From: a virus
Direction: 5' to 3' (one strand)
Length of the DNA stretch: 31,371 bases
Virus record (IMG/VR): IMGVR_UViG_3300042988_002400
Coordinates: 1-31,371 of that record
Shown here: positions 4,872 through 24,424 of the stretch, piece by piece
Position numbering within the stretch: position 1 is the first letter of the stretch
Layout: every line of letters starts with the position of its first letter
Position numbers and translations under genes: made by a program
The notes under the pieces: generated by a model
What the model was told of the DNA's origin: nothing
The model's input: the letters and a program-made list of their open reading frames with translations, nothing else
The model's database searches: none

Positions 4872-4876
4872 TGTTT

Positions 4877-5047: not shown

Positions 5048-5217
5048 ATGATCTCGCTATGATTTTATAAAGTAGATTCGCTAGATTATTCTAGTGGCTA
5101 TTTCATTTAAGCATAGGTTTTGTCACAAAGCTATAATATATTATACTAAAATTGTTGTTATGCATTAAATGTTTTTTAGTAAATTGATTATCTTTCCATC
5201 AAATGCAACATAAACCA

Positions 5218-5346: not shown

Positions 5347-5378
5347 TTTTTCCTCTTGATAAAAAACTTAAAATAATT

Positions 5379-5624
5379 TTAATTTTTTGGATATTTTTCT
5401 TTTACCATGGAAATATGTTCCATCCAGATATTAGTGCCATTAACTTTATCCCAATAAATCATATCTAATTGCTCTCCTGTACTAAGATAAGCTTCTTGTC
5501 TTAATCTAATATATTCTGTAGCCGCTAATTCTTGGGCTGTTCGTTGTTGCAATTCAATAAGTTCCTGCTCTTCTTCAGGAGTCATCATGATATGGGTTCC
5601 ATCTACTACTTTATAAAGTGCCAT
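5379..5624 (-). CDS. Small tail-fibre-associated protein
   Basis: The 81-residue protein begins with a short beta-like segment and then a charged helix (MTPEEEQELIELQQR), and ends with a pattern I associate with small phage proteins encoded beside fibres: RLRQEAYLSTGEQLDMIYWD ... MVKEKYPKN, comparable to 'Y..IG.QLDAL.....IKAVKDKYPK' proteins. Function may be fibre assembly or capping. Its ATG overlaps the fibre stop by one base (TAATG), so translation is coupled to the fibre gene. Confidence 0.78.
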   Translation of the reverse strand: MALYKVVDGTHIMMTPEEEQELIELQQRTAQELAATEYIRLRQEAYLSTGEQLDMIYWDKVNGTNIWMEHISMVKEKYPKN

Positions 5625-7729: not shown

Positions 7730-8058
7730 CAAGTTACCTGTAATATACAATTGATACTGGTGCTAACCCCAGCATTAGTAATGACGCCCCGGATTAGTTG
7801 TTGAGCTACAAATTCAACCATCGTTATTTGTGTATTAGTAGTAAAACTAAAGGCGACATTAAATCTATCGGTAATTGTGATCCAAGAAATGTTTCCTCCT
7901 GAATCTGGGATAGTTCCAACTTGTAGTTGCAAAGTTGCTCCTCCCCATGTTCCCCATGCTGTGATCACAGCTTTATCAGAACCGAGATTGAGAACAATAG
8001 GATTACCACTAATGTTAGTAGTTTGGGCGTTAAAAATAGTGATTAAATCATGTGCCAT
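7729..8058 (-). CDS. Small beta-rich virion-type protein, unknown
   Basis: A 109-residue protein, predicted mainly beta (ITAWGTWGGATLQLQVG, FSFTTNTQITMVEF, GVSTSINCILQVT), with no charge clusters or membrane segment. The pattern of a single beta-sandwich domain is common for fibre-tip or decoration proteins. It is one link in a chain of translationally coupled genes: its ATG directly follows the upstream stop and its stop overlaps the fibre start by one base. Structural role inferred from context only. Confidence 0.7.
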   Translation of the reverse strand: MAHDLITIFNAQTTNISGNPIVLNLGSDKAVITAWGTWGGATLQLQVGTIPDSGGNISWITITDRFNVAFSFTTNTQITMVEFVAQQLIRGVITNAGVSTSINCILQVT

Positions 8059-8595
8059 TTAATTCCATGCTGTTGATGTCTTATCTAATTCTTTATCTCT
8101 ATTTTCTAATTCTATATTGATTTTATAGAGAGGCATACTAGAGACAACATCAAGTTTGGTATCTTGAATCAGAAAATAGTTGGAATGAATATCAGGCTCA
8201 TCAGGAGCAATATAAAGATTATATTCCTTACATTTTTGTTTTAAGAATTTGCAATAACCTGCAAAATTATCGCCTAAGTATTTTAAAGCTATAGCTTTGC
8301 CCCAATTCTGCCATGAATATCCTGGAAGTAAATCAGTAACTTTTGGTCCTAATTCAAATGGAGAATTGATAATGATGTTAGCTAAAAAATAAGCTTTATA
8401 AGATTGCAAACTACTTATTGCCTCATCTATCTCTGCATCACTTCTACCTTTTTTCCAAAGAATTGCTTGACGAAATGGGGAAATGTAATCACTGAGCAAA
8501 CTGACATCTGAGAGTTTCTGACCCGGTAAACTTTGTAGAAAGCTACGTAAGTTTTTACCAAACTCAGGATCAAGTTGTTCAAAATTAATATGCAT
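8059..8595 (-). CDS. Unknown protein of the appendage operon
   Basis: The 178-residue protein is not recognised. It is mostly helical and mixed in charge (FGKNLRSFLQSLPGQKLSDVSLLSDY; GYSWQNWGKAIALKYLGDNFAGYCKFLKQKCKEY), ending in a polar tail. Unlike its neighbours it is not repeat-like or beta-rich, so it may be an assembly factor or chaperone for the fibres rather than a fibre part. Start ATG overlaps the upstream stop by one base (TAATG). Confidence 0.7.
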   Translation of the reverse strand: MHINFEQLDPEFGKNLRSFLQSLPGQKLSDVSLLSDYISPFRQAILWKKGRSDAEIDEAISSLQSYKAYFLANIIINSPFELGPKVTDLLPGYSWQNWGKAIALKYLGDNFAGYCKFLKQKCKEYNLYIAPDEPDIHSNYFLIQDTKLDVVSSMPLYKINIELENRDKELDKTSTAWN

Positions 8596-9158
8596 TAATT
8601 AGACTCCACTAACATCCAAGCTACAACTGAAGTGTCAGTATTATCTGAGGAAGTAATCACAAAACTTGCGCCTGCAGTTTGAGCAGTAACAGCTATTGGT
8701 TGAGGAGCACTGACTGTACCCAAACTTTGAACTGTAAGAAAAATTCTAGTACTGGTTGTGACGCTTGTATTGGAAACAGTAACGGTTCCTGCAGCTAAAG
8801 TTGCAGTACCGATTCTTGCATTAGTACCAGATTTAATTTGAAGACCTTTTCCTGCAGTAGTGACAACAAAATTACCCCCGCTTGAAACATCTCCTGATAC
8901 TGTTAAAACATTAGTCGTGTCATTAAATGACAAATCAGTACTGTTGCCAGTTAACACCCCATTTGTTCCAGCAAAAATTACAGAACCTGGAGTAATTCCT
9001 GTGCTTCCTGAAGTCAATAAATTACTAACTGTAATTTGTCTAGGAGAATATTGATTAGTAGACGGATCTAAAGTTTGTAGTAAAACCCGATCAGTAGCTT
9101 GAGCAGTAGTTGCCACAACTCCTTCTGCTCTTACGATGCCGAAATTAGCTATACCCAT
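8595..9158 (-). CDS. Appendage protein with phage 'TSFTITSSD.TDTS.VAW' C-terminal module
   Basis: The 187-residue protein has a repeat-like middle (GSVIFAGTNGVLTGNSTDLSFNDTTN...) and a C-terminal domain starting GKGLQIKSGTNARIGTATL and ending AGASFVITSSDNTDTSVVAWMLVESN. That C-terminal pattern is widespread at the ends of phage fibre or spike proteins. AGGT stands seven bases before the ATG. It is the first gene of the minus-strand appendage operon, so the promoter should lie in the 215-base gap that it shares with the oppositely oriented capsid gene. Confidence 0.82.
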   Translation of the reverse strand: MGIANFGIVRAEGVVATTAQATDRVLLQTLDPSTNQYSPRQITVSNLLTSGSTGITPGSVIFAGTNGVLTGNSTDLSFNDTTNVLTVSGDVSSGGNFVVTTAGKGLQIKSGTNARIGTATLAAGTVTVSNTSVTTSTRIFLTVQSLGTVSAPQPIAVTAQTAGASFVITSSDNTDTSVVAWMLVESN

Positions 9159-9212
9159 AGTGTTACCTATATTACATTGAGCTCTTAATAATTCTAACTC
9201 TTCTTTTTAGTA

Positions 9213-9239
9213 TTTACAACGTTAATAAATAACGATAAT
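9213..9239 (+). promoter_or_regulatory. Candidate promoter for the capsid block
   Basis: TTTACA (9213-9218, 5 of 6 to the -35 consensus) and GATAAT (9234-9239, 5 of 6 to the -10) are separated by 15 bases, which is short. It is the best pair on the plus strand in the gap between the divergent appendage operon and the capsid gene, which must hold starts for both. Confidence 0.4.
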
Positions 9240-9250
9240 AATGATAAAGG

Positions 9251-9278
9251 AGTTGAAATTTTTTTCTTTCAACTTTTT
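9251..9278 (+). terminator. Leader hairpin with T-run before the capsid gene
   Basis: AGTTGAAA (9251-9258) pairs with TTTCAACT (9267-9274) around a T-rich loop and is followed by more T. On the plus strand it has the form of an intrinsic terminator or attenuator about 100 bases before the capsid ATG. No plus-strand gene lies upstream that would need stopping, so attenuation of the late block, or a relic of a former gene order, is possible. The stem is AT-rich and weak. Confidence 0.4.
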
Positions 9279-9373
9279 CCAAAGACGGCACACGTAAAAA
9301 GCCAGTGAGATGCCACGTAAAACATCGCGTGAATTGAGGAACTTTTCTTTTCAACATTCATGTGAGGTTTACT

Positions 9374-10489
9374 ATGGCGGTAACGCAATTTTCCTCTTCG
9401 GACCTGCAAACAGTAAAACTGTGGTCAAATCGAATTTACAAAGATTTCATCACAGATAGTGGCTTATTGGCATCAATGCTTGCATCCGGGGTAGTTTCAA
9501 AACAAGACAAAACACAAAATGATGCGGGCGATCAAGTTCGTATTTCTTTCTTAAATCGTTTAACGACTCCTGGTTTGATCGGAGATCAGGCAGCAACTGG
9601 TAACGAAACAGCGCTCACCTATTATACTGATGACGTATTGATCAATCAGCTGCGTAAGCCAGTTGCGATTCCTAATACGATGACAATCAGCCAACAAAGG
9701 GTCTTATATGACCTCCCAGAAGATACTTACCAAGTATCTATGGATTGGATGAAAATCCGTGGAGTAGTAGGAGCACTTTATCAATTAGCTGGATTTACAG
9801 CATCAAGCTTTACTTATGATGGTTCAACTTATAGCGGGGCACAGCGCTTAGAGCTAACTGGGCTTAATGCTGCAATTGCCCCAACGGCTAATCGTATTTT
9901 TAGACCTAATAGTTATACCACTGATGAGCAAGTTAATGCAGATAGCACTGCGACTTTGAAATTCACCTTGATTGATGAATGCGAAGCCATTGCAGAAACA
10001 GTAAGGCCATATATTCGTCCGATCTCTGAGACTAGTGGAGTCAAATACCATATGTATGTCCATACTCGCCAATGGCAACAGTTGCTTCAAGACACTACTG
10101 CTCCTATCCAATATCGTGACATTATGGGCAATTTAATTGCATCAGGACGTGGAGATGGAGGAATCGCAAGATCGATGATTTATTCCCAAACTGAAATCTT
10201 TAAGACTGATAAAATCCCCAATGGAGTTAATTCTTCTACTGCAGCAGTATTGGCTAATACTAGACGCGCTGTATTTTGTGGTAGAGATGCTGCATGCCTC
10301 GCTTTAGGTAGAGGATACTCAGATGGTAAAGAAACAGTTCCCGGATTTATTATTCGAGAAGACACATGGGATATTGGACAAATACGTCGTGTAGCGATAA
10401 ATGGAATTTTCGGCATCAAGAAGATTCAATTTAATAGCTTAGACAACGGCGTCATTGTTGTTCCAACATACGTTGCACAAACTAGTTAG
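9374..10489 (+). CDS. Major capsid protein, N4-gp56/DUF4043-like
   Basis: A 371-residue protein in which DQAATGNETALTYYTDDVLINQLRKPVAIPNTMTISQQ, followed by a helical segment and a long domain ending in IFGIKKIQFNSLDNGVIVVPTYV, fits the N4-gp56/DUF4043 major capsid group of HK97-fold capsid proteins. I start at the ATG at 9374, because GTGAGG, which includes the in-frame GTG at 9362, is its Shine-Dalgarno. It would assemble on the scaffold protein encoded 9.5 kb away on the other strand, an unusual separation. The head decoration gene follows after nine bases. Confidence 0.88.
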   Translation: MAVTQFSSSDLQTVKLWSNRIYKDFITDSGLLASMLASGVVSKQDKTQNDAGDQVRISFLNRLTTPGLIGDQAATGNETALTYYTDDVLINQLRKPVAIPNTMTISQQRVLYDLPEDTYQVSMDWMKIRGVVGALYQLAGFTASSFTYDGSTYSGAQRLELTGLNAAIAPTANRIFRPNSYTTDEQVNADSTATLKFTLIDECEAIAETVRPYIRPISETSGVKYHMYVHTRQWQQLLQDTTAPIQYRDIMGNLIASGRGDGGIARSMIYSQTEIFKTDKIPNGVNSSTAAVLANTRRAVFCGRDAACLALGRGYSDGKETVPGFIIREDTWDIGQIRRVAINGIFGIKKIQFNSLDNGVIVVPTYVAQTS

Positions 10490-10498
10490 GAGGCTATT

Positions 10499-10987
10499 AT
10501 GTCAAGTTATAATTTTACTTTGGTTGATCCTATTTCTCCTTGGAATTCAGGATCTTTTATGATGGCGAAGGCATATTATGATCTCGCTACAGTTGCATTA
10601 GTTAATGGAGACACCATTACTGCAACTAATATTATTCCTGGAGATGGAGTAGAGATCATTGAGATCTTTGTCTCCCATCCAGAATTGGATACTAATGCTA
10701 CCCCTACTGGCACTTATAATGTTGGTGATAGTGGCAATGCAGCACGGTTTATTTCTTCTGCTCCATTAGGAACAAACGGTGCGACTACTGCAGGATTCCA
10801 AATACGTAACAGTATCAATATTGCAACAACGACTTCTAGTGGTGTAGTTGCAACAGGATCTGGTTATCGCTATACCGGAACTAGCCCTGCAAGCTTGATA
10901 CTAACAGTCAATGCTGCCGTTGCTACTGGTGCTACCGCTGGTGTAGTGCAATTGCTAGTAATATACCGTTGCGTTGGCAATAGTTAG
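10499..10987 (+). CDS. Putative head decoration/stabilising protein
   Basis: The 162-residue protein, rich in alanine, threonine and glycine and predicted beta, sits directly after the capsid gene behind a perfect AGGAGG. Its size, composition (NGDTITATNIIPGDGVEIIEIFVSHPEL; late LILTVNAAVATGATAGVVQLLVIYRCV) and place are those of capsid decoration or stabilising proteins. Family assignment is by context and general pattern, not by a diagnostic motif. Confidence 0.7.
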   Translation: MSSYNFTLVDPISPWNSGSFMMAKAYYDLATVALVNGDTITATNIIPGDGVEIIEIFVSHPELDTNATPTGTYNVGDSGNAARFISSAPLGTNGATTAGFQIRNSINIATTTSSGVVATGSGYRYTGTSPASLILTVNAAVATGATAGVVQLLVIYRCVGNS

Positions 10988-10998
10988 ACTGGAGAGAA

Positions 10999-11625
10999 AT
11001 GGCAGTAACTTTTGGCCAATTAGCGGCCCGTATATTACAGGAAACTAATCGCGATTCCACTTTTGAAATCAGTGTGGAGAATGCCATTATTACTGCCATT
11101 AAAGTATTAGAAAGAGAGCAATATTGGCTCTTCGAAACGAGCACGCAGTTAATATTAAGTGCGGGAGTAAATAACGTAGTTTTACCGATTGGTTTTTCTG
11201 AGATCAATAAACTGAGATTATTAGTAAATACTACTTTTAAGACTGCACGTAATGGATTTGTGCCTGTCACTTTTAATGATCTCCAAGATTATCAAGTGCT
11301 ACTTAATTATCAGGGCATTCCCAATCAGTGGGCTATTTATAACAATAGCATTTATGTTTCACCATTTCCTGATAGTGACTATGTCTTGTATATGGACTAT
11401 TACTACAAAGATCCAGTTTATCCTGTGGCCTATGAAGATACGAGCATCTGGTTTGGTGATTTAACTCAAGATTTAACTCGTTATTACGCAATGTATGTAT
11501 TTTATCGTGATACCTTACAAGCAGAAGAAAAAGCTCAATATTATGGAATGGCTGCACAAGAGTTTATCAATAACATGAGAATCCGTAACAACCAAAGACA
11601 AATTATTAATCGTTTAAGTATTTAA
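10999..11625 (+). CDS. Head-tail adaptor (P22 gp4-like tail accessory type)
   Basis: A 208-residue protein opening with TFGQLAARILQETNRDSTFEISVENAIITAIKVLEREQYWLFE, the helix-helix opening typical of podoviral adaptor proteins that bind under the portal, followed by NDLQDY...PNQWAIYNNSIYVSPFPDSDYVLYMDYYYKDP and a helical end. Known members form a ring joining portal and tail hub. GGAGAG precedes the ATG. It comes after the decoration gene and before the fibre and hub genes, the expected order. Confidence 0.8.
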   Translation: MAVTFGQLAARILQETNRDSTFEISVENAIITAIKVLEREQYWLFETSTQLILSAGVNNVVLPIGFSEINKLRLLVNTTFKTARNGFVPVTFNDLQDYQVLLNYQGIPNQWAIYNNSIYVSPFPDSDYVLYMDYYYKDPVYPVAYEDTSIWFGDLTQDLTRYYAMYVFYRDTLQAEEKAQYYGMAAQEFINNMRIRNNQRQIINRLSI

Positions 11626-12429
11626 ATGCCAACCTATACTACTAATTTCAATATTCCAATGCCTTTGGTCAATAGCCCAGTAGATGCGAATCAATGGGGC
11701 ACGTTACAAAACCAAGGTGCAGTTATTATCGATAACGTACTTGGTTATCTTAGTAAAAGTTCGATTGGAAGTACTCGTCCTAGTTATACTCAAGCTGGGA
11801 CATTTTGGGTTGATAACACTACTAATCCTTGGAATGTCAATATTTATGATGGAGTCCAAGATGTACCCCTTGGTACCTTAGATCCAACTGCTCATACTTT
11901 TACTCCTACAGGCGGAGTAATGATGAAAATTGCAGAATATACCTTAAGTAGTGTCTCATATCAAGATATTCCTATTGTTGGATATACTTCATACAGAATT
12001 GTTCTACAGAATGTCTTTTGTTCAGTAGATGTATCAGGTCCTGGATTTTTAATGAGTACTGATGGAGGAATTACATTCATTAATACGGCTGGTGCTTATC
12101 AATGGGGTGCTTGGTGCGCTACAGGAGGTACTGCAGGAAACAACATAGGATCTAGAAGTGATACTAGATTATACGTGTCATTACTAGATGTGGGCAATGC
12201 TACCAATGAAGGCCTAATTTCCTCTGATATTTGGATTAATAATGCTGGTAATAATAATATGTTCACTGTCTTGAATTTCGAAGGAGCTGCTTCAAATGGC
12301 CTAACTCAATATTGGGGATATAAAGGATTTGGTATTAGAGTCAATAAAGAAGTGAATAATGCCGTACGATTTCAATTCAATAATGGCATTATTACACAAG
12401 GTAAAATTATTGTTTATGGAATATCATAA
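11626..12429 (+). CDS. Tail-attached fibre or appendage protein
   Basis: The 267-residue protein has an N-terminal segment NIPMPLVNSPVDANQWGTLQNQGAVIIDN followed by RPSYTQAGTFWVDNTTNPWNVNIYDG, a pattern found at the base of phage fibres and spikes where it anchors to the tail. The rest is a beta-rich, neutral domain (LYVSLLDVGNATNEGLISSDIWINNAG), likely a receptor-contact or jelly-roll-like tip. Start follows the adaptor stop without a gap and has no clear Shine-Dalgarno, so coupling to the adaptor gene is probable. Its stop overlaps the hub start by one base. Confidence 0.75.
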   Translation: MPTYTTNFNIPMPLVNSPVDANQWGTLQNQGAVIIDNVLGYLSKSSIGSTRPSYTQAGTFWVDNTTNPWNVNIYDGVQDVPLGTLDPTAHTFTPTGGVMMKIAEYTLSSVSYQDIPIVGYTSYRIVLQNVFCSVDVSGPGFLMSTDGGITFINTAGAYQWGAWCATGGTAGNNIGSRSDTRLYVSLLDVGNATNEGLISSDIWINNAGNNNMFTVLNFEGAASNGLTQYWGYKGFGIRVNKEVNNAVRFQFNNGIITQGKIIVYGIS

Positions 12430-15041
12430 TGCCTTTACTAGGAAAAAAACTTCCTATTGAGATTGCAGCAGGAGTTAATCCTATTAATGATAGCACAGGG
12501 CTAGACACAATATATTACACCAATACTGATAAGGTACGCTTCCAGAACGGAAAATTGCGGAAAATGGCAGGATGTGTACGTGTTTTCTTCAACAATAATC
12601 AGAGGATATATGGGGCAGCGCGTACTGTATTTTCTTATGCTGATTCTACTAATGTCCATCGGCTTTTGATTGGAACTTCCTCTGGCTTATATGTTTATAT
12701 TGGGAGCAATATTGAAAATATTACTCCTTTAACTGGATCTCCTATTCTCATTCCCAACTCTCTCTCTACGGTCTATGTCACTGATCAGAGTTATTCTGTA
12801 AATACAACCATTAATAGTGACATTGTAACTTTTAATATTCCACATTTTCTTTCAATAGGAGATAGCGTAAAAATTAGTGGAGTTAGTAGCACTGTTGGTG
12901 GCATTCCTGCATCTAATTTGAATGGAATATTTACTGTAGTTGCAGTGCCTTCCAATTTTGCTTTCCAAGTTGAAACAACTGTCACCGCTACAAGTACTGC
13001 GACTGGAGGTGGTACAGGTATCACTATGGCTACGCAGCAAATTATCATTACCGTTGCTGATAATGGAGTCTCAATTGGAGAAAGAATAAAGATTGCAGAT
13101 AGTGCCGACGTAGGTGGCATTCCTGCAGCAAGCATTAATATTGAAAATATTGTCACTAAAATTATTACTATTAATAGTTTTGTCGTCAATACTGATACAT
13201 TTGCTACAAGTGCCGTGACCGATGGAGGAGGAGCTGACGTTACTCTTACTTTACAAATCATTCCTGGAAATCCCAATCAAATTAGAGGTTTTGGTTTTGG
13301 AATGGGAGAATTTGGGGTTGGATATTTTGGTATTTCTCAAAACTCAGCAGTAGGTATTGTACGTCCTGCTATTTGGTCAATTGATACTTTTGGAAATAAT
13401 GTAATCTTGACTCCCGGTACTCAAGGAAAAATTTATATTTGGGATAATGATGAAACTATTGCTCCAGTTGCACTATTAAATTCTCCTTCAGAAGTAAACT
13501 GGGTATTTGAAAGTAATGGTGCAGTTTGTGCTCTGGGCATCAATGGTGCACCTGATTCTTTTGCAAGCAGTGATATTGGTAACGCTACTATATGGACTCC
13601 TGGTCCAAATAATTTGTCTTATGCTACTTCTATTCCTGGAGCAACAATTTTTATTTCCCGATGTAAAAGTAGGAATATTAATTTACTCTTTACAGATAGT
13701 AAGGTGTATACTGCTGAATTTTTAGGTCCCCCTTTTATTTGGTCTTTTCAAGAATTATTCAGTACAGATGGATTAATTGGACCACGAGCTCAAGTACAAA
13801 TTGAAGATGCAGTATTTTGGATGGGATATGGAGATTGGTTTGTATTTAATGGAACTACGGTTAATATTCTGCCCAATAATACAATCAAACGTTATGTCCT
13901 TGATCAACTTGATTATGGCCAAACTGATAAAATCTTTGCTCGCGGTAATCCTGCCTATAATGAAGTATGGTGGTTTTATTGTTTAGCTGGTGATTCAGAA
14001 CCAACTCGTTATGTAATTTATAATTATCGGGAACAACATTGGACCATTGGAACTTGGGACAGAACTGCAGCCTCGCATCCTCCGTCAATTAATGTCGTTC
14101 CTTATATGATTGATAGTAATAACTTCGATACTGTCACTTTAGGAACTAATCCTATTTCCACTGTTTTTTATAACTTAACTACTGACCCTATTAGCGCTAC
14201 CGATAGTAGTTCATCGATCGTAATATTAATACCAAATCATATGCTCCAAATTGGAGATTCAATTCAGATTAGTAATGCCAATACTACTCATGGAATTACT
14301 GGAGCTAATATCAATGGTACTAGAGTAGTTACTGCCATTACTCCAACCACCATCACTGTCACTGCAGGCGCAAGCGCAACAAGTACTGGTACTGGAGGAG
14401 GCAGCAGTATCACAGTTGGCACTCAATTGATCAATGTTGCTACTACTCTTCATTTAAGCAACGGCTTTACAGTCCATCTTACGAATATAACTGCGATCAG
14501 TGGTTTCACAACATCTAATCTCAATGGGAACTTTATCATTCGTTATAGCTCTACTACCAATTTTACTTTTGTGGCTAATGGTGGCATGAGTACTGGTCAA
14601 AATAGTGGGGGAGGAAATGAAGTTTTTGTAAACTATGAACAAACAGTAAGACTATTCCAGCATGAGGTAGGCACTGATGACTATGATGTTGTGAATTGTG
14701 ATGTTAATAATCCTAGAAGCTGTCTTGCTGCTCTTAATGCTTTTGCGGAAACAAACTATGCGCAATTAGGAGTGGGGGACAATAATATGTTGATTTACTC
14801 GGTCATCCCCGATTCTTTGCAACAAGGTAATTTGCAAATTACAGTTTACACCCAACTCTATCCTCAAACTAATGCAACAATCATTCAAAAAGGACCATTT
14901 ACGATTACCCCTCAGACTAACAAAGTTGATGTCATGGCATTAGGTAGACAGAGAAAATATCGGATTGCAAGTAACGAAATCGGACAAGATTTTTTAATTG
15001 GTCGTTGGTTTGAACAAATTACTGAGAGCACTCCAAGATGA
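12429..15041 (+). CDS. Tail hub protein, P22 gp10-like, expanded by inserted beta domains
   Basis: The 870-residue protein begins with the hub pattern: DTIYYTNTDKVRFQNGKLRKMAGCVRVF, then YGAARTVFSYADSTNVHRLLIGTSSGLYVY, and later VCALGINGAPDSFASSDIGNATIWTP, VFWMGYGDWFVFNGTTVNILP and WWFYCLAGDSEPTRYVIYNYREQHWTIGTWDRTA. Known relatives (packaged-DNA stabilising protein gp10) form the tail hub and plug; P22 gp10 is about half this length. The extra length is at about 120-285 and 575-710, each made of modules like 'HFLSIGDSVKISGVSSTVGGIPASNLNGIFTV...TATSTATGGGTGIT', a beta module repeated two or more times. The C-terminal 150 residues (YSVIPDSLQQGNLQITVYTQLYP) are again hub-like. Confidence 0.83.
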   Translation: MPLLGKKLPIEIAAGVNPINDSTGLDTIYYTNTDKVRFQNGKLRKMAGCVRVFFNNNQRIYGAARTVFSYADSTNVHRLLIGTSSGLYVYIGSNIENITPLTGSPILIPNSLSTVYVTDQSYSVNTTINSDIVTFNIPHFLSIGDSVKISGVSSTVGGIPASNLNGIFTVVAVPSNFAFQVETTVTATSTATGGGTGITMATQQIIITVADNGVSIGERIKIADSADVGGIPAASINIENIVTKIITINSFVVNTDTFATSAVTDGGGADVTLTLQIIPGNPNQIRGFGFGMGEFGVGYFGISQNSAVGIVRPAIWSIDTFGNNVILTPGTQGKIYIWDNDETIAPVALLNSPSEVNWVFESNGAVCALGINGAPDSFASSDIGNATIWTPGPNNLSYATSIPGATIFISRCKSRNINLLFTDSKVYTAEFLGPPFIWSFQELFSTDGLIGPRAQVQIEDAVFWMGYGDWFVFNGTTVNILPNNTIKRYVLDQLDYGQTDKIFARGNPAYNEVWWFYCLAGDSEPTRYVIYNYREQHWTIGTWDRTAASHPPSINVVPYMIDSNNFDTVTLGTNPISTVFYNLTTDPISATDSSSSIVILIPNHMLQIGDSIQISNANTTHGITGANINGTRVVTAITPTTITVTAGASATSTGTGGGSSITVGTQLINVATTLHLSNGFTVHLTNITAISGFTTSNLNGNFIIRYSSTTNFTFVANGGMSTGQNSGGGNEVFVNYEQTVRLFQHEVGTDDYDVVNCDVNNPRSCLAALNAFAETNYAQLGVGDNNMLIYSVIPDSLQQGNLQITVYTQLYPQTNATIIQKGPFTITPQTNKVDVMALGRQRKYRIASNEIGQDFLIGRWFEQITESTPR

Positions 15042-15337
15042 CAAGATTTCATAAAGACCCAAGTAACATAAAAGAATCTTATAATGTTAGCGCTACTACT
15101 GTCTACGAAGAAAGAATTAAAAGACTAGAGCAACGAATGGATAACTTAAGTAATTACCTACAAATGCTTTTCCTGAAAGGTAGGACAAGAGTAGATAGGA
15201 GTGCTCCAGTATCGAGTGCCGATGTGCAGCCTCCTGATATGTTATATGATGTAGTTTGGAGTAGTGATTATTTATACATTGTGGTGGACGATTCCGGAGT
15301 ATTAAAATGGCGTCGTATTACATTAAGTACATTTTAG
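15038..15337 (+). CDS. Small coiled-coil virion protein
   Basis: A 99-residue protein with a helical, heptad-like part (TTVYEERIKRLEQRMDNLSNYLQML, about 20-44) and a C-terminal beta domain, DVVWSSDYLYIVVDDSGVLKWRRITLSTF, similar to short trimeric fibre heads. It overlaps the hub stop by four bases (ATGA). It could be a small trimeric tail component; function is inferred from shape and context only. Confidence 0.68.
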   Translation: MTRFHKDPSNIKESYNVSATTVYEERIKRLEQRMDNLSNYLQMLFLKGRTRVDRSAPVSSADVQPPDMLYDVVWSSDYLYIVVDDSGVLKWRRITLSTF

Positions 15338-15347
15338 GAGGTTTCTG

Positions 15348-16022
15348 ATGGATTTTTTAGGTGGATTATTACAAGTTGGTGGAGGACTTTTAGGGGGATT
15401 ATTTGGAGGAGAAGAGGGAGCGCAGCCATCCCAACAAGTTTCAGGATGGCAAGCATTACCTCGTGAAGTACAAGAAGCATTTCTTAAAACATATTTGCCC
15501 GACGTCAAACAAATATATCAAGCAGGACCTAATCAATACGAAAAACAAGCTGAAAGTATGTTAGGTGGTGGAATTGCGGGATTACGTAAAGATTTACCGC
15601 AATATATGAGTCCCTTTCAAGAACAAGTCATAGATCGAACTTTAAAGCGTTATAATGATCAAGCCGGACAAATGAGAAACAATATTATGGGTCAGGCAGG
15701 ATTAGGAGGATTGGGTTCATTTGGAAGTTCTGCTCTTGGTACTCAATTAGCACAACTAGATAAAAACAATTTAGATCGTCAATTAGATTATTTAAGTCAA
15801 GCTAATCAAGAAAACTATTCACAAGCTTTAGGATTACGCCAAGGATTGTTGAACGATTTACTGCAGGCTGGACAGATGCCTTATCAGAGAGTTTCAAGAT
15901 TGGGCACAATGTTAAATGCATTTCCTGGTGGGTCACAAAGCACTGGAGCTGTTCAAGGCACTCCAAATTGGGCCTCTAAATTAGGTGGAGGCATGATGTC
16001 ACTCGGCAGCTTATTTTCATAA
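15348..16022 (+). CDS. Putative DNA-ejection protein, glycine-rich N-terminus
   Basis: A 224-residue protein whose first 25 residues are a glycine/leucine-rich hydrophobic run (FLGGLLQVGGGLLGGLFGG), typical of podoviral ejected virion proteins that enter the host envelope; the rest is glutamine-rich and helical (LDKNNLDRQLDYLSQANQENYSQALGLRQGLL). AGGAGG precedes the ATG. It is the first of four consecutive ejection-type genes and corresponds in position to P22 gp7-like proteins. The assignment rests on composition and order. Confidence 0.75.
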   Translation: MDFLGGLLQVGGGLLGGLFGGEEGAQPSQQVSGWQALPREVQEAFLKTYLPDVKQIYQAGPNQYEKQAESMLGGGIAGLRKDLPQYMSPFQEQVIDRTLKRYNDQAGQMRNNIMGQAGLGGLGSFGSSALGTQLAQLDKNNLDRQLDYLSQANQENYSQALGLRQGLLNDLLQAGQMPYQRVSRLGTMLNAFPGGSQSTGAVQGTPNWASKLGGGMMSLGSLFS

Positions 16023-16118
16023 AATATTATTTCTGATATACTAATGAAGATATATACGTTTATTAGAATATATATTGATACATTGTATAAATAATAACTT
16101 TATATTATTGAGGAAATT

Positions 16119-16313
16119 ATGGAACCAGTTACAGTTTCAAACGCAATCAGGCTTTATCTACAAAAAGCAGCTATACTTAATCAAAGAATAGAAGAGGAAA
16201 ATGAGCGCTATCTTCAGATGATGACTTTAGCCAAAACCCAAAGAGAGCAGGATTATCCTTGGGTCAAACTACAAGCAATAAAGGATCAATATAATGTTCA
16301 ACAATTGGGATGA
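16119..16313 (+). CDS. Small helical protein of the ejection cluster
   Basis: A 64-residue, almost wholly helical protein (AIRLYLQKAAILNQRIEEENERYLQMMTLAKTQREQ). GAGG lies seven bases before the ATG, and the gene follows a 96-base AT-rich gap with no other gene. Its 3' end overlaps the next gene by 20 bases in another frame. Function unknown; co-expression with the ejection proteins suggests an assembly or chaperone role. Confidence 0.68.
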   Translation: MEPVTVSNAIRLYLQKAAILNQRIEEENERYLQMMTLAKTQREQDYPWVKLQAIKDQYNVQQLG

Positions 16314-17481
16314 GAGTAAATTAGACATTACGAACAATCCAACATTTCTAGCAGGATTATCAGTAATGAGAGGCACACCTGTGGATCAAGCTTTGGCTCA
16401 AGCATCTTTGATGCAACAGCAAAAGCAAGCTCAACAGCAGCAGATGTTGCAACAACAGATGCAACAGCAGCAAATCATGAGGCAACAACAGATGCAAGAA
16501 CAGCTTCCGCAAATGTTGCAGCAATTACAGGGTAAAAATCCTCAAGAGGTTTTTGTTGCTCTTCGTACTGCTGGTCTTGATACCAAAGAAGCAGCCACAA
16601 TTGCGAAATATGTTGGCCAAGTTCCTGCTGCTTCACAACTCCAAATGTTTGCAGGACCAGGCAATGTTCGTTATCAAATAATAAGCAATCCTGAAACTGG
16701 AGAAATGGAGGCTAAGCCTTTAGCAGGACAAATACCCGTTAATTCTAAACCTAAATTAAGCGTTTCAGAAATGAGGATAAATTCTAGCAAACTAACTCAA
16801 CTTGATAATGACGCTAGAGCCGCAGAAAAAGAGCTAAGACTTTTAGCAGATAGTGACAAGGCATTCAAAACATTTGATAGCAATACTGGTTCTTATACTG
16901 GCCCTGGAAGTCTAGCAAGTAAATTTATCCCCAAGGGAGTAGAGAATATCATTTATAATAAAAAAGCTCAAACTGCCAAACAAGAAATTGATAAATTAAA
17001 TTCCCAATTATTCCAAAATCGCGTAGCTGCTTTAGGGGCTAGAGGAACTGATGTGGCCAAACAAGAAATCATGAAGGGCTTACCAACCATTATGCTAAAT
17101 CCGGAAGCACGCCATGAATTGATTGCCACCAAAAGAAGAGAGAATTTTGAACAGATATTGCGTTCCAAATTCTTTAATGAATGGGCCAAACAAAACCAGA
17201 AAGATCTAAATGGAGCTGAAAATGCTTTTGCGGAATTAGTAAGTTCTGTAGATCTAATAGATTCTCAAGGTTACCCCAGACGTGAGTTATTGCAACAAAT
17301 ACCTGAGATTATCAATGGCTTTGCTGACAATGAACGTCCTCCTCTAGAAACGAAAGAAGAAGCATTATCAGTAGAAGGAGAAAAATCTGATCCAGAAGAA
17401 GAAATAGATAATCTTTATGCGCAGTTTGAAGATTTACCTTTAGAAGCATTGATTGCTGAACAACGTCGCCGAGGAAAATAA
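16294..17481 (+). CDS. Putative DNA-ejection/internal virion protein with polyglutamine segment
   Basis: The 395-residue protein has an alanine-rich start (TFLAGLSVMRGTPVDQALAQASLMQQQ), a glutamine/methionine-rich run at about 40-72 (QQQKQAQQQQMLQQQMQQQQ type), and a long helical body with RINSSKLTQLDNDARAAEKELRLLADSDKAFK and GPGSLASKFIPKGVENIIYNKKAQTAKQEIDKLNSQLFQNRVAALGARGTDVAKQEI. The last pattern is shared with phage ejection proteins I have seen in this position. It should travel with the DNA into the host. Overlap with the gene before (20 bases) and after (TAATG) indicates coupled translation. Confidence 0.75.
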   Translation: MFNNWDESKLDITNNPTFLAGLSVMRGTPVDQALAQASLMQQQKQAQQQQMLQQQMQQQQIMRQQQMQEQLPQMLQQLQGKNPQEVFVALRTAGLDTKEAATIAKYVGQVPAASQLQMFAGPGNVRYQIISNPETGEMEAKPLAGQIPVNSKPKLSVSEMRINSSKLTQLDNDARAAEKELRLLADSDKAFKTFDSNTGSYTGPGSLASKFIPKGVENIIYNKKAQTAKQEIDKLNSQLFQNRVAALGARGTDVAKQEIMKGLPTIMLNPEARHELIATKRRENFEQILRSKFFNEWAKQNQKDLNGAENAFAELVSSVDLIDSQGYPRRELLQQIPEIINGFADNERPPLETKEEALSVEGEKSDPEEEIDNLYAQFEDLPLEALIAEQRRRGK

Positions 17482-19997
17482 TGGAAAGTTCTCTCAATAG
17501 ATTAACTAATCAGCAGCTAAATGAACTGATACGTCGCAAATCTCTTCAAGAAGCAAACCCTCAAGTTAGCCGTTCTCCAGTTACTGCTAAAAGGGATATC
17601 AGCCCTGCGGAATCATTTTTCAGAGGCGCTGCAGACACTGTAAGTTTAGGTTTCATGCCTAAAATATTAGGAGGAATTTTAGCTCCAGCTTTAAAATATG
17701 GCAGACCCGATTTATTTGGTGATCAATCTTTATCCGACATCTATAAACAAGCTAGAGATGACGTTAGACAAGAAAACACACAAGCTATGGAGCAAAATCT
17801 GCTCACAAATTTGGGTGGAAGTTTAGCTGGAGCTGTTGCTTTGCCTTTCCCAGCCAAAAATTTAAAAGAAGCAGCTGCGTTGGGAGCAGGATATGGAGCT
17901 CTCCAAGGACTAGGAGAAAGTGATTTTGGAGATGTTGGAGAATTTGGCGGAGAAGATATTCTTAGTGGCCTCACTGGTGCAGGTATCGGAGCAGCTACTG
18001 GTGGATTAGGACACATTTTAAGCAACAAACTCTTTTCTCGTTTCAAAGCTCCAGCACCAGAAGCATTAGATAAAATTCGGATTGCTCAGGAAACAGGCAT
18101 TCCCTTAACTCAAGGTGAAATAACCAGGGCACCAGAAACTTTACTGAAAGAAGAAAGAGTTTTATCAGGCAAAGTAGGAGCAAGCAACCAACGTAACCTT
18201 GAGGATTTTAAAAACCAACAAAAGAGTAAAATCAATGAAGCCGCTTCTAATTTACGTAATCAGTTAGGCCAGGAAGAATTTGTAAATCGCGGCTCAGCTG
18301 CCAATGAAGCTATCGGTAACATCCAACAGCAAGCTCTCGATGAACGCAAAAAATATTCACAGCTTTATCAAGAAGCCAAAAAAGGCGTAGCGAACTTCAA
18401 TACAAATGAATTGAAAGGTTTTATGCAACAAGCTGTAAGTGATTTTGAGGAAGCTGCTTTAAGTGAAGATAATGTTCCAAAAGCGTTCCGAGAATTACAG
18501 GCTTTAGATCGAGTTTTAAACAAGGAAGAAGTAAGTTTAAATTCCTTAGAAGCCTGGAAGCAAGGACTAAACCGTGCCATTAAAGATGCAAGTCCCGGAG
18601 GACAAGAAGAATTTGCCTTAAAACAATTGAGTCAAAAGTTTGATGGCTATTTAGATGGAGCTATAGAGACAGCACTGACTGAAGGTAATGTAGATACATT
18701 AAATCAATTTAAGAACGCAAGAAAGCTCGCAGCAAATTGGTTTGAAAAATATAGCGCTAAAAGTCCAGACGAAGTGGGAAAGAAATTCGTTGAAGATATC
18801 GTTGATAATGCTCGTTTCTCCAGGGAGCCTTTTACCGATGAAATGCTTGTCAATAAAATCTTTGGTGCTAGTGAATTAGGATTTAAGCCTGCAGCTGCAG
18901 GTATTGTGAAAGAAATAAAAAAGCTCTCTTCGCCTGAAGATTTTAATAAAATTAAATTAGAAGCTGCCCAAAAACTTCTTACACCACTTCTTGGAGAAAA
19001 TCCCAGTGCAGCCAAATATACGTCTAGCATCAAGAAATTTCTTGAGAGCAACAATACTTTAGCACGAGAATTGTTTAGTCCTCAAGAACTAAAACAATTC
19101 CAGGACTTAGGTGAAATCAGTTCTGCAGTTTTGACTCGAGAAAAATCTCTCGCTAATCCTTCTGGTACTGCTTCAGTAATCATAGACTATCTTCAGCATA
19201 AACCTGCGTTTGGTTTTCTGAAAAATGTTTTTAATAAGGTGGAACTTGATCAAGAGAAAATTGCCCAGGCAGTAAGAAAGGGAGAGAAATTGGAACTTCC
19301 TATGAATGCTTCTGCAAAAGCTCTGATCTTAGGGGGACAAAGTGGTTTTCTAAAAAGTATTCAAGATCGAGAACAACGCCTACAAAACATGTCAGATGCT
19401 GATCTAGAGAGGATTATATCTATCAAACAAAATCAATCTTCTCCAAAAGCACAACAGAAAGCTTTTGGATCTAAATCTCTATCAGAGAATCAGACTTCTC
19501 CAAAATCAAATAAGACTTCAGAGCTGATCCCAGATAATTTGCTAAACAAGATTGCCTATATTGAATCTGGAGGCGACCCTAACGCCAAATCTGCTACTTC
19601 GAGTGCTTCAGGTATGTTCCAATTTACTAATGCAACTTGGAAAGAAGGAGTGAAGAAGTATGGAAAGCAACATAACATTTCCATGAAAGACAAAAATAAT
19701 CCGGAAGCACAAAAGATAATTGCTATGAGCATGTTAGAGGACGCCACTCAAGATTTGTCACAAGACTTAGGGCGTAAATTAAATGAGGGAGAAATATATC
19801 TTATTCATTTCTTAGGACCTACAGGTGCACGTAAGCTATTGAATAACTACGACCAGCAAACTCCTGCAGCTAGACTATTGCCTGCAGCTGCCAAATCTAA
19901 TCGCAGCATCTTCTTTGCTAAAGGCAAACCTCGTACTACAAAACAAGTTTATGATTTGATCCAGCAGAAAATGGACAATGCAAACTACAACGTATAG
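17481..19997 (+). CDS. Large ejection protein with C-terminal lytic transglycosylase domain
   Basis: The 838-residue protein has an N-terminal helical and glycine-rich part with a membrane-active segment (about 115-180, GGSLAGAVALPF... AGIGAATGGLG), a long helical middle (190-650) and, from about 685, a soluble lytic transglycosylase domain: LLNKIAYIESGGDPNAKSATSSASGMFQFTNATWKEGVKKYG. Glu695 in IESGG is the expected catalytic acid; SASGMFQF is the usual second motif. Such virion enzymes open peptidoglycan locally during genome entry. This is the only peptidoglycan enzyme found in the window. The domain is preceded by a serine/lysine/proline-rich linker whose DNA is duplicated just past the stop codon. 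Confidence 0.87.
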   Translation: MESSLNRLTNQQLNELIRRKSLQEANPQVSRSPVTAKRDISPAESFFRGAADTVSLGFMPKILGGILAPALKYGRPDLFGDQSLSDIYKQARDDVRQENTQAMEQNLLTNLGGSLAGAVALPFPAKNLKEAAALGAGYGALQGLGESDFGDVGEFGGEDILSGLTGAGIGAATGGLGHILSNKLFSRFKAPAPEALDKIRIAQETGIPLTQGEITRAPETLLKEERVLSGKVGASNQRNLEDFKNQQKSKINEAASNLRNQLGQEEFVNRGSAANEAIGNIQQQALDERKKYSQLYQEAKKGVANFNTNELKGFMQQAVSDFEEAALSEDNVPKAFRELQALDRVLNKEEVSLNSLEAWKQGLNRAIKDASPGGQEEFALKQLSQKFDGYLDGAIETALTEGNVDTLNQFKNARKLAANWFEKYSAKSPDEVGKKFVEDIVDNARFSREPFTDEMLVNKIFGASELGFKPAAAGIVKEIKKLSSPEDFNKIKLEAAQKLLTPLLGENPSAAKYTSSIKKFLESNNTLARELFSPQELKQFQDLGEISSAVLTREKSLANPSGTASVIIDYLQHKPAFGFLKNVFNKVELDQEKIAQAVRKGEKLELPMNASAKALILGGQSGFLKSIQDREQRLQNMSDADLERIISIKQNQSSPKAQQKAFGSKSLSENQTSPKSNKTSELIPDNLLNKIAYIESGGDPNAKSATSSASGMFQFTNATWKEGVKKYGKQHNISMKDKNNPEAQKIIAMSMLEDATQDLSQDLGRKLNEGEIYLIHFLGPTGARKLLNNYDQQTPAARLLPAAAKSNRSIFFAKGKPRTTKQVYDLIQQKMDNANYNV

Positions 19998-20044
19998 AAA
20001 GAATCAGACTTCTCCAAAATCAAATAAGACTTCAGAGCTGATCC
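19486..20044. repeat. 45-bp direct repeat framing the transglycosylase module
   Basis: The same 45 bases occur at 19486-19530, in the linker (ENQTSPKSNKTSELI), and at 20000-20044, three bases after the transglycosylase stop codon and three before the stop codon of the convergent scaffold gene. The copies are 514 bp apart and bracket the entire catalytic domain plus stop. In the second copy the same frame would read SELILLIPS and then stop. Confidence 0.95.
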
Positions 20045-20047
20045 TTC

Positions 20048-21022
20048 TTATCCCTTCCTGATTTTGTCTAGGGCTTTACGAAATTTGGATACATGTTCTG
20101 GATCTGCACTAGAATAAAATTTCTCAAAGTTTTCCAATGTAGTATAATTTCCTGCTCCACCTGATGGAGATAAAGGTTGTGAGTTCACATCAGCTGCATT
20201 AGACTTCTTGATATTTTTAGAAATAGCCTCAATGTTAGGACCAGCTTGCTTGGTAGTAGAATCTTTTTGTTTAGCATTAAAGCCATAGGTTTTAGCTATC
20301 TGGTATAAAGTTTCTGGTACGTTCTTGCCTTGAACGAAAGTTCTTTGTCCAATTATACTTATTTTATCCATAGCAGCTTTCAGAGCATCACTTTCATTTT
20401 GATGCAAATATTTTTGCGCATTGATTTCAACTTTAAGCAGATGACTAAATGCTTCATTAAAGTCTGGATATTGTTTGAGAAATTGCTCATGTTGTACATT
20501 CACTGATTTCTCAAAATAGTCTTGCTGCTCTTTGTGTTTAATACGATTTTCAAGCTCTTGAATCTTTTGCATGTAAGTTTGATGCGCTTCATTATCAAGC
20601 GGCTCGAAACTTTTCTCGTCTGGCGTTCCTACACTATCATTGACGCCTTGAATCTTTTGCAGAGCTTTATTAATCAAGTCTAATTCGGTTTTAGCTTTGA
20701 TCGCTTCTTCTTTTTCGCGTTGTAATTCCGCTTCCAAAGCTTTACGTTTCTGGATTTCTTTATTGAATCTTTTATAAGGAATCGTTTGATCTTTTAAATG
20801 GTCACCATCAGAATCCTGGAGATCACCAGCATCATCAGCAGAATCGAGATTATTATTAGAGTTATCTGTTGTTGGTTCAAGAATTTCATCATCTTTATCT
20901 GTATCTTCATGCGATCCAATATTTTCCTCATTTTCATTTTCTCCTGTGTAAACATTCTCATTACTCTGATCTCTTATCATATTTAATTGCTGTCTAAAAT
21001 CTAATGGGTTTATTTTATCCAT
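20048..21022 (-). CDS. Scaffolding protein
   Basis: The 324-residue protein is highly charged: an acidic, asparagine-rich disordered N-terminus (about 20-75), the IPYKRFNKEIQKRKALEAELQREKEEA pattern (81-107) that marks many phage scaffolds, a coiled-coil middle and a basic C-terminus (FRKALDKIRKG), the end that usually contacts the capsid protein. GAGG stands seven bases before the ATG, and only seven bases separate it from the portal gene. The capsid gene it should serve is not next to it but far away in opposite orientation. Confidence 0.85.
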   Translation of the reverse strand: MDKINPLDFRQQLNMIRDQSNENVYTGENENEENIGSHEDTDKDDEILEPTTDNSNNNLDSADDAGDLQDSDGDHLKDQTIPYKRFNKEIQKRKALEAELQREKEEAIKAKTELDLINKALQKIQGVNDSVGTPDEKSFEPLDNEAHQTYMQKIQELENRIKHKEQQDYFEKSVNVQHEQFLKQYPDFNEAFSHLLKVEINAQKYLHQNESDALKAAMDKISIIGQRTFVQGKNVPETLYQIAKTYGFNAKQKDSTTKQAGPNIEAISKNIKKSNAADVNSQPLSPSGGAGNYTTLENFEKFYSSADPEHVSKFRKALDKIRKG

Positions 21023-21029
21023 GTAATCC

Positions 21030-23054
21030 TCAAATAATATCTTTAAAAGTTAGTGCTGTCTCACGAGCAGCTTTGGCATTAGCTAAATTAGCATCTGCCT
21101 TGATCTTTTCTATCTGGGCATTAAATTGTACCTCAGATAATCCTAATTCATGTTGTTTCTGCAAAACTTCTAATTTAGATTTCATGGCATCTATCGAGTT
21201 TTTCTCGGCAGTTGAATTCTTCAAATTAGTTTCTGCAACTAATAATGCCTGTGATACTGGATCAGGAGGAGGCGGAGGAACAGGCTGCATCATCTGATTG
21301 ATTTGTTGAATCTGTTCTGATTTTAACGGACTATATTGTACCACCATCGGCATGATATCAATTGGATTTTGTTTATTGGCCAATAGCGATGCCATTTCTA
21401 GCAATTTGGTAAATGTCTCTTGGCGTTCGTTAGGTGTTTCAGGAATATCTTCAACGATAATGTCATATTCTGCCGCAATTCCGTCTTTCAATAATGGAAC
21501 ATATCGGATTGCGCCATTACTCATAACTCTAATTAATCTTCCTTCAGAATTTTCAACCAATACTCTAATGCAATCAATGAAAAGTTTACCCTGATCGATT
21601 GTATAAAACTTTTTGGCATCAAAGTACGCACTTAATGTGGTCAAAGATTGTCGTACTAATTGACGATTCAGAGTAGCCGTCATCATCTTTGAATCAATAA
21701 TCCCCATAAAATCTTGATTTACTCCAGACGTTTCCATTATAGAAACAGCTGCAAAGTTGATCATATCAAGTAATCCAGAAGGAATTGGAGGAGTGATTTT
21801 AGGTCTAGTTTTAGCTAATCCTCCAGGATTATAAATTGTGACTTCTCTAGCTTTCGTATAAGTCTGTACAAAAGCTGCCATATTTGGTACAGCATCGGCT
21901 TCGATTTCTATACCTCCTTTAGGAATGGTACGTAAGAATCCTTCATAGTCAGATACGGCCTGATTGAGCATCCTTTGAGGCTCTTTCGCAGCGCGCACAA
22001 CGCCATAATAACATTGACGTGCTTCCGAAAAGTAACCGGTCATAAACTTAAAACTAAAACCAGTTTGCGAAAAGTTTTCCTCAGCATCTACTACACGATT
22101 ACCCACAATGGTTGCACGATAATACTTGAATTTTCTTTGTCTAATAGATTTAAATGGAAGATCTAAAGATACAAATGCTTCTTTGACTTTACGATAATCT
22201 TTTGGATCTAAGGAAAATACTTTATTGTTTGCTAGATCAATATTCATGTTGTTTTTTAGAGCTTCAACCAGCATCAGAATTTGTTGGCTACGTATCTCAT
22301 CTGGGTTTAGTTCCATACCCACTAAAGGATTTTCTACCCGATAAAAAGGGACTTTTTCACGCCATTGATACTCATAGATAATACCTAAAGACTTCGCAAT
22401 CATGACGGTATTGAAGAAGTCTAAGAAACGAGCGTCTTGAGCAGCTCCAAATTCAATATCAAAATTCTCTTCGTCCTCTGGTCTGCCGCGTAAATAGTTA
22501 TGCATTGTATCTTTATCAACAATCTTGGCCCGCATAACCCAATTGGCATCTTCAAGATTTTTAGCACGTGCTGTAACATCCCAAAGCATAAAATAAGGAA
22601 AGATACGCTCAATGACGACTTCCCCATCAGGATTGTTATCATACACAATATTAGTATCAGTAATGCCAACACCGCAAATTAACATATCTCTGAAAGCAAG
22701 ACTTGCCTGAAAATCACTTTTGGAATCATCGGAAATATATCGGACTACGCTATTCAAAAGATCAGAAAATCCTTCTTGGTCTTCTGTGGCCTTGCGAGGT
22801 ACATAATCTACTTCGCTGCGATTTTGAATTTCAAAACCAGCAATAGCATTCACAACTGGGGCAAGCTTATTGATAGTCCTGATAGGCATTCCATCAGCAT
22901 TTTGCCGCGTATAAGTATCTTCTAGCCACTGATCCCCCTCGATCAGTAGGTAATTATCTCTGATTTCGTTAGCTCTCCACCATGACTGTACGAGCAAACA
23001 ATCGTTAATACGTTGATGGGCCAAACGTAGTATTTCTTCGTGATCTAAATTCAT
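21030..23054 (-). CDS. Portal protein, P22-like podoviral type
   Basis: The 674-residue protein has a typical podoviral portal layout: opening RINDCLLVQSWWRANEIRDNYLLIEGDQWLEDTYTRQNADGMPIRTINKLAPVVNAIAGFEIQNRSEVDYVPR, then LAFRDMLICGVGITD, YFSEARQCYYGVVRAAKEPQRMLNQAVSDYEGFLRT (the stem/wing region), VNQDFMGIIDSKMMTATLNRQLVRQSLTTLSAYFD, and a helical barrel-like C-terminus with a PPPPPDP linker. It forms the dodecameric DNA gate at one capsid vertex and docks the terminase. Length fits the P22 class (about 700). No strong Shine-Dalgarno precedes the ATG. Confidence 0.92.
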   Translation of the reverse strand: MNLDHEEILRLAHQRINDCLLVQSWWRANEIRDNYLLIEGDQWLEDTYTRQNADGMPIRTINKLAPVVNAIAGFEIQNRSEVDYVPRKATEDQEGFSDLLNSVVRYISDDSKSDFQASLAFRDMLICGVGITDTNIVYDNNPDGEVVIERIFPYFMLWDVTARAKNLEDANWVMRAKIVDKDTMHNYLRGRPEDEENFDIEFGAAQDARFLDFFNTVMIAKSLGIIYEYQWREKVPFYRVENPLVGMELNPDEIRSQQILMLVEALKNNMNIDLANNKVFSLDPKDYRKVKEAFVSLDLPFKSIRQRKFKYYRATIVGNRVVDAEENFSQTGFSFKFMTGYFSEARQCYYGVVRAAKEPQRMLNQAVSDYEGFLRTIPKGGIEIEADAVPNMAAFVQTYTKAREVTIYNPGGLAKTRPKITPPIPSGLLDMINFAAVSIMETSGVNQDFMGIIDSKMMTATLNRQLVRQSLTTLSAYFDAKKFYTIDQGKLFIDCIRVLVENSEGRLIRVMSNGAIRYVPLLKDGIAAEYDIIVEDIPETPNERQETFTKLLEMASLLANKQNPIDIMPMVVQYSPLKSEQIQQINQMMQPVPPPPPDPVSQALLVAETNLKNSTAEKNSIDAMKSKLEVLQKQHELGLSEVQFNAQIEKIKADANLANAKAARETALTFKDII

Positions 23055-23344: not shown

Positions 23345-23373
23345 TAGACATACGCCATATATTATGATATAAT
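23345..23373 (+). promoter_or_regulatory. Strong sigma70-type promoter for the moron-like gene
   Basis: TAGACA (23345-23350) is 17 bases from a consensus TATAAT (23368-23373). The start of transcription would fall near 23380, giving a 40-base leader to the ATG at 23420. This is the best promoter match noted in the window. Confidence 0.75.
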
Positions 23374-23419
23374 ATACATATGTGAAACACACAAAATTAA
23401 TATATAAACGGTAAATATC

Positions 23420-24424
23420 ATGCAAAATATAAAATTATTATCTTACAGAAAGTCAATATTTCTTACTTCTATTATGTTGTACGGAGTAATAAATTACTTT
23501 TCTATATCTCAAGCAGCACTTCCAGTATTTATTATATGTGCTGCTAGCAGCGCAGCTTTTAGATTCTTCAGTAATAATCAAAGCAAACGTGAAGAATCTT
23601 TAATGCTAGTACAACATATCAGTATTTATTGTACTGCATTATACATCATGCAGAATTTGTTAAAAAAATCTATGGCAACATTAGTTTTAACTTCATTTTG
23701 TTGCGCTTTTGTATCAACAAGCAAAGAAAAACCTTCAGGCTTGAAAGGTTTTGTGGAAAGAGCCCGCAGCTATGGTCCATTGTTTACTCCTCTAGTTTCT
23801 ATTCTCTTTGAAGACACACTAACCAAACTTCTAGGACATTGGGGCAAATATACTATAACAGTATTCATAGAACCACTATCTAAAGAATTTTTCACACAGT
23901 ATGACAAAGATTTCTCAGAGAAAGGAAAAGACGTTTCACTAAGAATAGTGACTAAATTTGCATCTAATGCAGCTTTTCAAGCAACACTGGCATTCTCTAA
24001 AACTTATATCAACTTTTACATGAAAGAATTTTTCTCTTCAGTACTAAACCAATTTTGTGTTACAACATTAGGCGAATCTGTAACATTGATGGTAGCTAGT
24101 GCTGTTGGTCTGTCTGTCACTGCTATTTCTGATTACACCTTCTCTAAAAAATCAGAATCAGCAACATCAAAGGTATCAAGTAACCCCCTACAACAAGCAG
24201 CTTTATGTGCAATACCTAGAAGCGTGGTTGTATCTGTTAGAAAAAGCTATGCTCCTTATGTTGAATCATTCTTAGAACAAATCATCCCTAGTGATTGGGG
24301 ATTTACAAAAGAAGCTACTGTGCAAGTTACAAAATGGGCTCAAACCTTCGTCACAGATACTATAAGTAATTGTATTGATGATCTTACTCGCAAAAGTAAA
24401 ACTGTTAAAGAACGCACTATATAA
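23420..24424 (+). CDS. Moron-like membrane/secreted protein, unknown function
   Basis: The 334-residue product is not recognised. The N-terminus has a positively charged start and hydrophobic stretches near 12-50 (a signal anchor or two helices) and about 68-92; a further hydrophobic segment lies at about 220-240 (LMVASAVGLSVTAISDYTF). The rest is helical and mixed in charge. It lies on the plus strand between the minus-strand portal and terminase genes, has its own strong promoter and hairpins on both sides, and is therefore a separate cassette inside the packaging module. Superinfection exclusion or host-directed effects are typical for such genes but nothing in the sequence shows either. 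Confidence 0.8.
   Translation: MQNIKLLSYRKSIFLTSIMLYGVINYFSISQAALPVFIICAASSAAFRFFSNNQSKREESLMLVQHISIYCTALYIMQNLLKKSMATLVLTSFCCAFVSTSKEKPSGLKGFVERARSYGPLFTPLVSILFEDTLTKLLGHWGKYTITVFIEPLSKEFFTQYDKDFSEKGKDVSLRIVTKFASNAAFQATLAFSKTYINFYMKEFFSSVLNQFCVTTLGESVTLMVASAVGLSVTAISDYTFSKKSESATSKVSSNPLQQAALCAIPRSVVVSVRKSYAPYVESFLEQIIPSDWGFTKEATVQVTKWAQTFVTDTISNCIDDLTRKSKTVKERTI

Follow-up and report, generated by a model that had tools for sequence, protein, structure and literature searches.

Reversed capsid-to-ejection gene block, probably inverted in place, in an uncultivated podovirus-like phage

A 10.8-kb block of late genes is reversed in an uncultivated phage relative to all of its relatives, and we consider it probable (roughly 70%) that one complete late gene unit of ~10.8 kb, from the capsid leader to the last ejection gene, was inverted in place in the lineage of this phage. 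The window, that is, the whole stretch of DNA analysed (IMG/VR record IMGVR_UViG_3300042988_002400, 31,371 bases), was mapped from open reading frames and family searches (PHROG, Pfam), with the names scaffold, decoration and adaptor assigned mainly by position and from homologues in relatives. Open reading frames and homology place terS, terL, portal, a putative scaffold gene (20048–21022) and fibre genes (3384–9158) on the minus strand; capsid, decoration-like, adaptor-like, hub-like and ejection genes, with an SLT transglycosylase domain last, occupy the plus strand at 9362–19997. This map reproduces the strand split described in an earlier, sequence-only reading of the window and agrees with the capsid-scaffold distance given there (9.5 kb; the gap measures ~9.6 kb). 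The genes and the block are as follows.

1294–1878, minus: small serine recombinase (Resolvase + HTH_7 in Pfam; PHROG 125, E 2e-57)
8595–9158, minus: first fibre-module gene left of the junction (Pfam K1-lyase_C; homologue after the ejection genes, same strand, in 16 relatives)
9159–20047, plus: inverted block at its largest extent, up to the intact genes on either side (gene order versus 41 relative contigs)
9362–10489, plus: major capsid protein (PHROG 334, E 5e-41; 76% identity to closest relatives)
10499–10987, plus: decoration-like gene beside capsid (neighbour conserved in relatives; name based on position)
10999–11625, plus: adaptor-like tail protein (PHROG 10775, E 5e-6)
11626–12429, plus: virion gene with N-terminus conserved in relatives
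12429–15041, plus: hub-like virion structural protein (PHROG 3287, E 2e-54)
15038–17481, plus: one small conserved gene plus ejection-like genes, of 99, 224, 64 and 395 aa (relatives have homologues of the 99-, 224- and 395-aa genes at matching positions)
17481–19997, plus: large ejection protein with C-terminal SLT transglycosylase domain (PHROG 4067, E 3e-36; Pfam SLT)
20048–21022, minus: putative scaffold gene, ending 3 bp from a 45-bp repeat (homologue directly upstream of capsid in relatives; name based on position)
21030–23054, minus: portal (PHROG 156, E 4e-77)
24526–25989, minus: terminase large subunit (PHROG 38, E 4e-98)

Gene order was compared with relatives retrieved by capsid and portal searches of IMG/VR (about 60 contigs), among which 41 distinct contigs, counted by hand with the loci of one contig merged, hold both scaffold and capsid homologues. 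In every one of these (41/41) the two genes share a strand and capsid lies downstream of scaffold, with nothing between them except, in some contigs, cargo genes. Full gene maps were drawn for 23 contigs, many bearing the terminal repeats that circular assemblies would have; in 16 of them the fibres come after the ejection genes without a change of strand. Portal and capsid share a strand in four named phages (Rhizobium RHph_Y1_10, Microcystis Mae-JY35, Paracoccus KLEP18-1 and MW202512). The window has homologous terminase, portal, capsid and hub proteins in common with this colinear podovirus-like group (relatives of RHph_Y1_10 and Mae-JY35), and is the sole exception, among the contigs examined, to the group's trait of scaffold, capsid, ejection genes and fibres running in one direction; the reversed capsid-to-ejection block occurs in the window only. 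The earlier reading had proposed that this block was inverted as one piece and had suggested a comparison of gene order with related phages, naming relatives that all share the split order as what would count against it. No relative with a split order was found, and the unsplit, co-directional order in every relative (41 scaffold-capsid and 16 ejection-fibre contigs) confirms that the block is reversed and supports reading the window's gene order as an inversion.

Other rearrangements were observed among the relatives. terL alone is reversed in one subgroup (L008 and L079, on contigs G005 and G025), and no flanking inverted repeat at least 12 long was found beside the reversed terL of G005; a module on the RecT side occurs in either orientation.

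The two ends of the block have the following features.

9159–9361, unstranded: left junction, a 203-bp intergenic stretch between the divergent fibre gene (8595–9158) and the capsid gene (from the sequence)
19486–19530, plus: source copy of the 45-bp repeat, in the linker before the SLT domain of the large ejection gene
19998–20047, unstranded: right junction, 50 bp between the convergent stop codons of the ejection and scaffold genes
20000–20044, plus: second copy of the 45-bp repeat, nearly filling the right junction (45/45 bp identical, direct orientation, source 514 bp away)

Both cuts fall in noncoding DNA and every gene at them is intact; because noncoding DNA makes up 10.3% of the window, the chance that two random cuts would both spare genes is ~1%. 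Neither the two ends nor the surroundings of the recombinase gene hold inverted repeats above chance (best inverted match at the ends 7, shuffled mean 8.1), which upholds by computation the earlier statement that the ends lack an inverted repeat; that statement had overlooked the direct 45-bp repeat at the right end, one of the few long repeats of the window and one with a copy exactly at the junction. Junction filler identical to nearby sequence, as a templated insertion would have, is present over 45/45 bp, and no such duplication was found in the relatives checked. The minus-strand transcript of 20000–20044 folds as a hairpin (z = −2.29, compared with −0.11 for the plus strand). Were the two copies to recombine with each other, the SLT domain would be lost and the protein would stop after a few codons of new sequence; the duplication is therefore expected to be unstable, which makes a recent origin probable. 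The perfect repeat suggests that the flip was also recent, and the repeat could predate or postdate it. Dating by fourfold-site skew was tried and set aside, as in the window the GC skew does not change sign between the block and its surroundings, and relatives vary.

We propose that the flip arose by illegitimate repair, either break repair or replication template switching, with no dedicated invertase, and that 45 bp of the ejection gene would have been copied into the junction as a repair scar. The most likely cause would be template switching or error-prone end repair, which leave fillers of this kind, here 45 bp drawn from 514 bp away. Templated insertions attributed to template switching (MMBIR) are described for cancer cells and human genomic disorders (PMC8421209, PMC2621351); the likeness is that nearby sequence is copied into a rearrangement junction, as in the window, and the difference is that the present case is drawn from one phage junction. 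The window suggests that scar-type repair can rearrange phage genomes.

The inversion is seen in one contig, and chimeric joins during assembly or amplification could produce a false inversion in a metagenome contig. Searches of viral contigs with the junction 22-mer found no copy elsewhere, leaving no independent copy of the junction, and the contig has further unusual repeats close to its ends, one of them a perfect palindrome of 33 nt. Such an artefact would, however, require three false adjacencies (the left junction, ejection stop to repeat, and repeat to scaffold), all in noncoding DNA with every gene whole, and the ends do not have the inverted similarity that would cause such joins. 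Given the intact genes and the three novel adjacencies required, assembly error is the less likely source, and an artefact of either kind is in our view unlikely. Searches of viral contigs for close relatives of the scaffold and the large ejection protein found none, and the capsid alignment, run against bacterial genomes to look for a host, gave no match.

We also considered whether the block, instead of being flipped in place, came in reversed from another member of the family. In favour of import, genomes of this group are mosaic: the nearest relatives differ for the terminase and fibre genes. Capsid (inside the block) and portal (outside it) nevertheless rank relatives alike (ρ = 0.85), as do portal and scaffold (ρ = 0.91), and the nearest relatives are common to capsid and portal/scaffold (G002, G003, G012/G015), the first two being nearest or nearly so for capsid, portal and scaffold. 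Judged from these rankings, the genome is mosaic, yet the capsid end of the block goes with the portal-scaffold side. Because capsid and portal/scaffold rank relatives alike, a flip in place is the favoured reading, and import is very improbable.

The borders of the block appear suited to such an inversion in place. The scaffold-capsid gap of relatives ranges from 175 bp to 2.9 kb and carries cargo genes on either strand, namely small membrane proteins with a lysozyme-like gene, so read by eye from the sequence (G013, G015, G027), a serine recombinase on the opposite strand (G026, G027), small opposite-strand genes (G020, G023) and antitoxin-like genes. By its gene content this gap is a cargo hotspot (lysis-type cassette, serine recombinase), and since the gaps of 0.2–2.9 kb accept cargo on either strand, the scaffold-capsid border evidently tolerates separation.

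The same gap suggests another route, in which inverted copies of a cargo element once present in both gaps recombined homologously and were later lost. The hotspot and a RecT-like annealing protein encoded by the window phage are in keeping with this, but neither junction holds a cargo remnant, and the ejection-fibre gaps of 16 relatives are only 54–97 bp long and cargo-free, which makes this route highly improbable.

Just upstream of the capsid gene (about 130 bp), relatives (L010, L012, L028, L049 and others) carry a conserved leader of four hairpins. Across 16 aligned leader sequences 97% of pair cells are retained, and 5 pairs are changed on both sides compared with 1.6 in shuffles; the Shine-Dalgarno sequence is part of the last helix. 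A covariance model built for the leader gave strong matches at the capsid leader in closer relatives and a weak one to the window (E 0.12), and Rfam gave no match for the window or for the leader of one relative. A second subgroup of relatives has repeated CGTG-loop-CACGGTAAA hairpins in place of the four-hairpin leader. The window has a leader at the corresponding position.

9245–9376, plus: capsid leader of the window, with the Shine-Dalgarno sequence in a stem as in relatives (fold z = −3.43, 0/200 shuffles)

The predicted fold would hide the capsid ribosome-binding site in a stem. With the relatives' leader and a window fold that hides the Shine-Dalgarno sequence, the capsid unit was very likely self-controlled before the flip, and the block looks like one transcription unit with its own leader. 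The need for different promoters for scaffold and capsid, stated in the earlier reading, is probably not new: because the relatives' gap is already long, accepts cargo and holds a structured leader RNA, separate expression probably predates the flip.

Promoter-like sites in the left junction lie at 9213–9242 (plus) and 9219–9191 (minus) and are weak (4 found, 1.7 expected). Matches to the sigma-70 consensus in the gaps of relatives were not above chance on the capsid side (scaffold-capsid z −0.5) and reached z 1.8 in the ejection-fibre gap. An extended −10 pattern, enriched on the sense strand in some relatives' gaps, was rejected, the patterns having been picked post hoc and being absent from the window. 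Promoters at the block ends are thus candidates, being weak consensus matches. The left cut probably lies upstream of the site at 9213, in the first ~50 bases of the intergenic stretch, because the capsid leader and this promoter-like site stay with capsid. The flip would have been tolerated because both ends are borders of transcription units: the block would carry its own candidate promoter and leader RNA, the fibre genes would keep their own promoter, and scaffold and ejection transcripts would now converge on a short hairpin.

Conservative inversion, which requires matched sites, offers a different cause, namely that the phage's own small serine recombinase flips the late block as a site-specific switch. 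The window does encode a recombinase of the resolvase/invertase type, in two relatives (G026, G027) homologues occupy the scaffold-capsid gap itself, and a further pair of contigs (G020/G021) has a 30-bp perfect inverted repeat around the recombinase. Gin/Hin-type invertible segments combine a small serine recombinase with a segment of fibre variants that has recombination sites at its ends; the window resembles them in its recombinase and reversed segment and differs in block ends without recombination sites and in carrying essential virion genes, not fibre variants. No above-chance inverted repeat joins the block ends, the recombinase flanks have no clear match there, the orientation is the same in all relatives, and a 45-bp filler is not expected from conservative recombination. 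With matched sites absent, the recombinase is disfavoured and would be an extremely improbable cause. We hold it to be just as remote that the late block is a reversible switch, driven by the serine recombinase or by border-primed recombination, that couples and uncouples scaffold and capsid expression in the population. As a separate observation, the ~1.8-kb segment around the recombinase in the latter pair of contigs (L106, L108), where the inverted repeat overlaps the start of the RecT-like gene, looks from its sequence like an invertible segment.

Reversed structural modules have been described in other phages. In Campylobacter group II phage CP21 (genome ~183 kb) two modules carrying structural genes are reversed with respect to CP220 and CPt10; genes are undamaged, and the inverted blocks of 28–55 kb are separated by repeat regions of 1–2.9 kb (PMC4546147). 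The window likewise has an inverted structural-gene block with intact genes, but this block is 10.8 kb, has no inverted repeats and splits scaffold from capsid, and in place of long repeats at both borders there is a direct 45-bp copy at one. Variants of phage WO have replication, head and connector modules in reversed order (PMC9203015), a likeness to the reversed block in the window; that case is a reshuffling of modules in a Wolbachia prophage, whereas here one transcription unit would have been flipped in place with a scar. Literature searches found no precedent closer than CP21. Block inversion as such is therefore known, and a repeat-free inversion by which a small podovirus-like genome has its scaffold and capsid genes split apart is new within the searches made. 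In tailed phages, terminase-portal-scaffold-capsid is one of the most stable gene orders and genome features. Scaffold and capsid in separate, facing units would show that this standard order is dispensable if each unit is self-regulated, the capsid leader RNA being the likely reason why the split order is tolerated.

Several smaller features of the window were recorded. Re-inverting the block leaves three clear genes on the opposite strand (4–1233, 23420–24424 and 27149–27514), the number given in the sequence-only reading, and a doubtful fourth (3107–3379). One of the three, the Holliday-junction-resolvase-like gene at 27149, also runs counter to the packaging genes in relatives. The open reading frame at 4–1233, at the left end of the contig, contains several internal tandem repeats and matched no family in PHROG or Pfam. 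The fibre gene at 5624–7750 has internal repeats (48 bp, perfect; 140 bp at 81%), suggesting length variation driven by repeats. A perfect 33-bp palindrome with a 2-nt centre at 31279–31346, near the contig end and absent from the relatives examined, is possibly a telomere, origin or terminator. A 28-nt inverted repeat (93%; 23357–23384 and 31152–31179) lies upstream of the opposite-strand genes at 23420–24424 and 30662–31111 and, from its placement, reads as one promoter used twice.
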